From: Treponema sp.
GTDB lineage: Bacteria > Spirochaetota > Spirochaetia > Treponematales > Treponemataceae
Direction of reading: 5' to 3'
Length of the DNA stretch: 34,280 nt
Assembly (NCBI GenBank): GCA_024689365.1
Contig: JAILDQ010000132.1
Coordinates: 1 to 34,280 of the forward strand
Shown piece after piece: positions 31,796 through 32,497 of the stretch (the first letter of the stretch is position 1; every line of letters starts with the position of its first letter). A program made the position numbers and the translations under genes. The notes beneath the pieces were generated by a model that was not told the DNA's origin, did no database searches, and saw only the letters and a list, made by a program, of their open reading frames with translations.

Positions 31796-32240
31796 GTTTT
31801 TCTCCTTGCCGGCAACCTGTTTGCCGACACTTAAAAAATATTTTATGTGCTGCGCTTTAAACCAGAACCCTCGCCCTTTCGAAGAAAGAACTTGGATTCG
31901 CATACACATCTTTTTTATGCGACTGTTTGATGAACGTTAATGACGGTAAAAGAATAATTTTCTAACATAACGCTCCATAATTTCGGAACATTTATGGCCG
32001 ACACCACCTGTTCATTGTCAAACGCCGCTTGACAACCGGTTTGGCGCTCTGAGCCGCGGGGCGCTCTTCTGAAAGAAAAGCCGCCGCAGAAATCCCCGTA
32101 TGGAAGTTCTATTGCCTTGTTGACAACAAGGCATTCCACCCAAGAACCGCGAAACCTGAAAGTTGCAAGCAACTGACTTTACGGTTCCGCCGGAATTGTA
32201 AATTCCGCCTGACTCTCAAAGAACCAAAGATAGGTTTTAG
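31796..32240 (-). promoter_or_regulatory. Long structured 5' leader of tuf (candidate)
   Basis: Hairpins at 31810-31826, 32015-32035, 32113-32133 and 32162-32173 plus GGAATT/AATTCC near 32190-32205; no convincing ORF. Confidence 0.55.
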
Positions 32241-32241
32241 A

Positions 32242-32270
32242 AATATATAGAATTTGTCAAAAAAGGTCAA
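32242..32270 (-). promoter_or_regulatory. Sigma70-type promoter for tuf
   Basis: Minus strand TTGACC (32270-32265), 17-bp spacer, TATATT (32247-32242). Confidence 0.6.
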
Positions 32271-32281
32271 TAGCAATAAAG

Positions 32282-32458
32282 GAATTTTTAGAAAAAAACT
32301 TCCCCCAAAAAAAGCGGGTCCCAGCGACGAGAAAAAGGGGACGGAGCCTACCGTCATTCGCTTGCGTCTTTACGCCTTTGGCAAAGCCGCTTCGCTGACG
32401 GGTCCTTCCACCCCTTTTCCTCTGCGTCCCGCTTTTTTTCGGTTTTTCCTAAAAATTC
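32282..32458. repeat. Large imperfect palindrome (MITE/REP-like candidate)
   Basis: GAATTTTTAG (32282-32291)/CTAAAAATTC (32449-32458); AAAAAAAGCGGG (32307-32318)/CCCGCTTTTTTT (32428-32439); GAAAAAGGGG (32331-32340)/CCCCTTTTCC (32411-32420); CCGTCA (32351-32356)/TGACGG (32396-32401). Confidence 0.8.
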
Positions 32459-32472
32459 GTCGGGGGATAAAA

Positions 32473-32497
32473 AAACCGCCCTCGGAAGGGCGGCTTT
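32473..32497 (-). terminator. Intrinsic terminator after rpsG
   Basis: CCGCCCT-CGGA-AGGGCGG stem followed on the minus strand by T7. Confidence 0.88.

Follow-up and report, generated by a model that had tools for sequence, protein, structure and literature searches.

A probably mobile, terminator-like hairpin repeat dispersed through the genomes of gut and rumen Treponema

Introduction

The gap between rpsG and tuf in a draft genome of Treponema sp. (assembly GCA_024689365.1, contig JAILDQ010000132.1) holds a long imperfect palindrome directly next to the tuf promoter, which raises the question whether this structure belongs to the str region and its regulation or came from elsewhere. We analysed positions 1 to 34,280 of the contig, the 34,280-nucleotide stretch referred to as the window, to whose first letter all coordinates without a locus or contig name refer, and compared the palindrome with genomes of the same genus and order. 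Many of these genomes are drafts, genes were called as simple open reading frames, and the model searches across genomes scored limited numbers of candidates.

The palindrome and its conserved unit

Read directly from the sequence, the palindrome of 177 bp occupies positions 32282-32458. As originally predicted, it lies between the intrinsic terminator of rpsG (hairpin and T tract, 32469..32493, minus strand), which is outside the element and has an equivalent hairpin in relatives, and the neighbouring tuf promoter (TTGACC-17-TATATT, 32242..32270, minus strand), whose -35 box TTGACC starts at 32270, 12 bp away. Of the pairing arms named at the outset, the outer tips (10/10), the arm AAAAAAAGCGGG/CCCGCTTTTTTT (12/12) and CCGTCA/TGACGG were likewise found. 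Folding gave -41.7 kcal/mol as DNA (z -5.8) and -67.8 kcal/mol as RNA (z -6.0), and in both cases none of 200 dinucleotide shuffles was as good.

The unit that is repeated and conserved is the inner part only, a core of 119 nt (32314..32432, RNA orientation on the minus strand) that matches the copies in its own genome with BLAST E values of 2e-23 to 6e-11; the outer tips are unique to the rpsG-tuf locus. The covariance model matches the window copy at 32306-32440 with 102.5 bits. On the minus strand the core begins with the conserved 5' motif GCGGGACGCAG (32422..32432; family consensus GYGGGACGCAG, columns 9-19 of alignment A1), which varies little or not at all among 40 copies, and ends with the conserved 3' motif CGTCGCTGGGACCCGC (32314..32329), whose CCCGC end pairs with GCGGG of the 5' motif to form helix P1. 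The interior (32330..32421, minus strand) comprises helix P2 (A-rich/T-rich), a second internal loop, an ACCCGTC/GACGG helix and an apical hairpin; it is variable yet paired, its sequence being specific to subfamilies and genomes.

As a separate observation, the leader of tuf, some 440 nt long (31796-32240, minus strand; GGTTCTTTGA...CGTAAAG...TTTCAG...), has conserved blocks in 18 Treponema genomes. It has no Rfam match and is, judged by these blocks, a candidate structured tuf leader RNA.

Copies, empty sites and inversion

The BLAST search proposed with the original prediction gave strong partial matches to the 177 bp on four other contigs of the same genome (G000; 337 contigs, 82% complete, 5% contamination), in which the covariance model finds six copies. 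Within the genus, 62 of 146 genomes have copies by the same model, usually 1-22 each; since 22 candidates were scored per genome, which equals the maximum count, the highest counts are lower bounds and the top count is at least 22. In an order-wide sample 27 of 244 genomes carry the element (24 within Treponema, three outside), representing four of 82 genera, so that it is rare outside its own genus. Named carriers include Treponema sp. JC4, C6A8, UBA3813 and UBA4377 as well as many rumen metagenome-assembled genomes, and the copies are dispersed between the genes of these gut and rumen treponemes. Half-elements (L006, L128, L383) and a variant form (L051) also occur. A location on phages was considered and rejected: the 3' motif was matched by 16 viral contigs, and none of these had a credible 5' end. 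Copies in opposite orientation can lie about 100-720 bp apart (G092:C1 2325399-2325779, G092:C1 1343831-1344295, L094:4496-5446).

Empty sites, also looked for on the suggestion of the original prediction, were found between rpsG and tuf in three close relatives, G060 (rpsG 96% identical), G065 (91%) and G050 (90%), and at other loci. The element is absent as well from every other genome in which the rpsG-tuf gap could be read, the spacer there being short. In the three close relatives and in many more distant genomes tuf follows about 540-710 bp after rpsG without any element, and because of these element-free gaps the suggestion that the repeat sits where fusA would be in other bacteria is unneeded and was rejected. 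Between the rhomboid gene and serA, the element is found in G000, G090, G050, G375 and G065, and G060 and G115 have an empty site. In place of the element, G358 (L330) and G319 (L333) carry long hairpins unrelated to it, with A and T tracts at their borders. At rdgB-flaB it is present in G000, inverted relative to G000 in G079, and missing from G319, where the junction is clean, as well as from G060, G358 and G115. At the typA locus it occurs in G015 and G108 and is missing from G003, G092 and G120, and at the L218 locus G004 has it and G039 does not. Presence, absence and inversion at these loci are how a mobile repeat behaves, and the window copy is most simply a recent gain in the lineage of G000, loss in all others being less parsimonious. 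The prediction of a MITE- or REP-like dispersed repeat is thus borne out by an intergenic hairpin that is multicopy, lineage-specific in its presence and accompanied by empty sites; as the palindrome is not a single copy conserved at one locus, the dispersed-repeat reading stands.

The typA copies, whose cores are 73% identical between orthologs and 100% between paralogs, made us consider concerted evolution by conversion; G003, G092 and G120 being empty at typA, however, independent insertion explains the cores equally well.

Other repeats came to light at these loci. At L003:1670-1826, on contig C250 of the own genome, and in relatives there is another dispersed palindrome, about 155 bp long (GCGGAAACTCTCTGTTTGCGCC...GAGTAGCGCAGTTATCAAGCGGTTCCGC) and more abundant than the present element; in close relatives most BLAST matches to the query, roughly 14-44 per genome, belong to this second repeat, which also occupies the apex of the rdgB terminator in G319. 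A repeat of the form TAAGGCCGCTGGCGGCCGGTGTT...AGCGTTAAAAAAAATGC..GCATTTTTTAGC follows typA (L376, L381, L383, L214, L215), and in G015 it sits inside the apex of the present element.

A conserved internal loop between covarying helices

When 40 copies are aligned, it is the internal motifs GYGGGACGCAG and CGTCGCTGGGRCCCGC that do not vary, and not the outer tips. These two motifs close the 5-bp helix P1 and leave an asymmetric internal loop, followed by helix P2, which is freely variable in sequence yet paired (GC/GC, AC/GT, GG/CC, AG/CT, AA/TT, CA/TG etc.). In the structure tested, consisting of 21 pairs (8 outer, 5 in P1, 8 in P2), 89.4% of cells are paired, versus 72% with shuffled partners and at most 59% when one side is slid; both-sided changes occur at 13 of the 21 pairs, and the covariation score is 0.488 versus 0.18. 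The long form has, according to RNAalifold, a further helix (CCCGYC/GRCGGG) and the apical hairpin, with double changes that preserve pairing at 14 of 35 pairs. Short forms of about 74-76 nt end in CCC-loop-GGG, some of them with GNRA loops.

The pairs that deviate from Watson-Crick pairing are polar with respect to the strand. Read on the minus strand, G-U exceeds A-C in P2 by 30:8 over distinct sequences, such pairs in P1 are almost exclusively U-G, and in the outer arms the G-U:A-C count is 130:68, the ratio in cross-paired controls being 1.39. This excess points to an RNA (or single-strand) fold of that strand, and thus supports a fold formed by the minus strand as RNA, although the same strand may instead fold as single-stranded DNA.

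Do these features mark a functional structured RNA, either non-coding or cis-regulatory, with GGGACGCAG/CGUCGCUGGGACCC as a ligand- or protein-binding loop, which became multicopy by chance? An invariant asymmetric internal loop between covarying helices, GNRA-like apical loops in the short forms and strand polarity would all suit such a molecule. The copies themselves speak against it: the functions of neighbouring genes are inconsistent, copies stand in every gene arrangement including antisense tandems, presence at a given locus is unstable among close relatives, and no Rfam match was obtained, neither at E<=1 for six loci nor at gathering score for the window. We consider a functional RNA of this kind unlikely, yet it is the strongest competitor of the mobile repeat.

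Outer arms that are specific to each locus

The original prediction saw terminal inverted repeats in the tips GAATTTTTAG/CTAAAAATTC. They are not those of the family, because other copies carry different arms: the outer arms, supposed terminal repeats included, vary among copies but stay paired. On average 12.6 of 15 flanking positions pair with their own partner, versus 7.3 of 15 with flanks of other copies, and the median ungapped arm measures 14 bp versus 1 bp in cross-pairs. The clearest case is G015, where L208, L209, L211 and L212 share identical cores of 124 bp inside unrelated arms of about 15-22 bp; arms around identical 124-bp cores are near-perfect palindromes of 15-25 bp and mutually unrelated. 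A...T tracts bound many copies. Members of the long subfamily, which is present in G000, often have an outer motif of the type GCGGRCAAA in common, so that in them the element may extend into the arm.

At rpsG-tuf, the 3' outer arm TTTTTTTGGGGGAAGTTTTTTTCTAAAAATTC (32282..32313, minus strand) aligns in its distal part with ancestral sequence upstream of the tuf promoter, 24 of 30 positions being identical to the empty site of G050 in a hand alignment; on this alignment the right arm (TTTCTAAAAATTC...) would be ancestral. The 5' outer arm GAATTTTTAGGAAAAACCGAAAAAAA (32433..32458, minus strand) is unlike the arm of any other copy and nevertheless pairs with the opposite flank. Close relatives with an empty site lack it, and nothing in G050 corresponds to the left arm GAATTTTTAG, which is the exact inverse of the right arm. 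This might mean that the left arm was copied in inverted form from the target flank, either during insertion or later, a reading that we hold to be doubtful because the sequences are AT-rich. Equally tentative is its generalisation, a hairpin mobile element whose insertion itself creates the surrounding palindrome. If true, integration would go along with a hairpin fold-back (template switch) by which one target flank is copied, and the target duplication would be inverted, not direct.

The reverse order of events, with arms older than the core and insertion solely into the apex of pre-existing terminator hairpins, has some appeal, since the arms, which differ from locus to locus, resemble terminator stems with A/T tracts, and since G319, empty at rdgB, already has a stem resembling a terminator there, albeit one holding a different repeat. 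Against it, the outer palindrome is missing where rpsG-tuf, typA (in G003) and the L218 locus (in G039) are empty, and the pairing continues up to the core with no traces of an old loop. We judge this order somewhat less probable even than a functional RNA.

What moves the element

A transposase with matching ends, which the original prediction proposed to look for, was not found. No longer, autonomous copy with an open reading frame was seen among the copies examined, and no gene family accompanies them: adjacent reading frames share none beyond orthologous loci and common permeases. Rpn/PD-(D/E)XK proteins lie beside two loci and were dismissed as associates, 1-2 of about 86 loci being concerned. 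A target-site duplication as a general feature of the genus was rejected too, since direct repeats outside the arms (4.52 nt) are no longer than in cross-paired controls (4.39 nt); a few copies have direct repeats of 7-9 bp there.

Movement by an IS200-like Y1 (RAYT) transposase, as for a REP or REPIN, would fit dispersed, strand-polar intergenic palindromes, and Y1 transposases do occur in the genus. None was found in G000 or in the copy-rich G004, G015, G020, G090 and G092, nor in most carriers, and the association is, if anything, negative (10 of 62 carriers versus 25 of 84 non-carriers, Fisher p=0.08). REPs of the GTAG- and CGTC-tagged types are 20-40 bp long and carry a short tail and a terminal tag that is not paired, and the CGTC type, which lacks a dedicated transposase, has been reported from Spirochaetes (PMC3733652). 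The Treponema element is a dispersed palindrome like these (PMC3733652), but its cores mostly measure 74-124 bp and carry no GTAG-type terminal tag; its CGTC is internal and followed by GC, not AT, and its 3' side ends in CCCGC and the outer arm, without a CCA tail. The distribution of Y1 and the missing tag largely refute RAYT/Y1 as the mobiliser, and we regard this origin as very improbable. Separate from the element, sequences resembling CGTC REPs (CGTCATTGCGAGCGAAGCGTGGCAATCCA) lie at the typA loci L370 and L372 and also at L366, consistent with the CGTC REPs reported from Spirochaetes (PMC3733652).

Finally, a structural element conserved as part of the str operon and confined to this locus, the other possibility raised originally, has its position beside the tuf promoter in its favour and is refuted, virtually beyond doubt, by the further copies in the own genome and the empty gaps of relatives; no other genome in which tuf follows rpsG carries the element there.

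A terminator-like 3' hairpin

Many copies combine features of a terminator, namely a stem, a T tract and nearness to gene 3' ends. In convergent pairs the median distance from the copy to the stop of the antisense gene is 24 nt, in antisense tandems 34.5 nt, and the relevant arrangements have medians of 24-67 nt overall. By crude reading-frame calls, the orientation of neighbours is mildly biased (convergent 31, divergent 18 of 113). Some convergent gene pairs without the element, as in G003, leave hardly any space for a terminator. A simple terminator scan, whose loop limit is 8 nt, did not flag the outer stem. It should also be noted that rpsG has its own terminator, so that such a role at rpsG-tuf would be redundant.

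We favour, with a probability of about 0.6, a non-autonomous, dispersed, terminator-like mobile hairpin repeat of gut and rumen Treponema, whose most economical role, suggested by its position and fold, would be that of a bidirectional terminator-like 3' hairpin. Copies would be inserted into 3'-flanking gaps of genes by an enzyme supplied in trans, and the long stem with its A/T tracts might then act as an intrinsic-terminator-like hairpin, possibly in both directions; at rpsG-tuf it could end or shield read-through between rpsG and the tuf promoter. Recent amplification and/or conversion would keep the cores alike within a genome, and the outer arms would stay or become locus-specific and complementary.

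Relation to known repeats

Dispersed mobile repeats with a conserved RNA-like secondary structure are known as bcr repeats from the Bacillus cereus group; the present element would share these traits and differs in sequence, host and target. An integron attC site (RYYYAAC/GTTRRRY core boxes, cassette array) was discarded, as the element ends in GYGGG/CCCGC and its copies stand singly between housekeeping genes.

Prokaryotic MITEs such as ERIC and QMITE2, the latter residing mainly in 3' untranslated regions (PMC10969869), are of similar kind: roughly 75-200 bp, palindromic, intergenic, non-coding, variable in copy number and present or absent among relatives (PMC10969869). The Treponema element is likewise short, non-coding, multicopy and dispersed. 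It would differ from MITEs in seemingly lacking conserved terminal inverted repeats at its outer ends (the core ends in the 5-bp inverted repeat GYGGG/CCCGC, and the palindrome extends into unrelated arms); it has no consistent target-site duplication (4.52 nt versus 4.39 nt, as given above), no parental insertion sequence was found among the copies examined, and it shows compensatory, strand-polar helix changes.

The pneumococcal SPRITE and BOX repeats are small and interspersed, extensive RNA structure is predicted for them, and their mobility is probably non-autonomous, SPRITE being named for its sequence and structure resembling a Rho-independent terminator (PMC3049150). In all these respects they are like the Treponema element, whose terminator aspect recalls SPRITE (PMC3049150); they differ in phylum and sequence, BOX-like modules are absent here, and in contrast to both the Treponema element conserves its internal core alone, with outer arms that are locus-specific but complementary. 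By analogy, it would behave essentially like prokaryotic MITEs and, in its terminator aspect, like SPRITE.

In a search of open-licence papers neither the core sequence nor any MITE of Treponema was found described, and the family is, as far as we found, previously undescribed. Its recognition explains a conspicuous palindrome that annotation would overlook or mistake for a regulatory element of tuf, and adds to the gut and rumen treponemes a widespread, apparently undescribed repeat family with an RNA-like fold. The conserved asymmetric internal loop, combined with exchanged inner and outer helices, amounts to a natural experiment on terminator turnover, and the family also bears on the question by what means short hairpins spread when no transposase is obvious.
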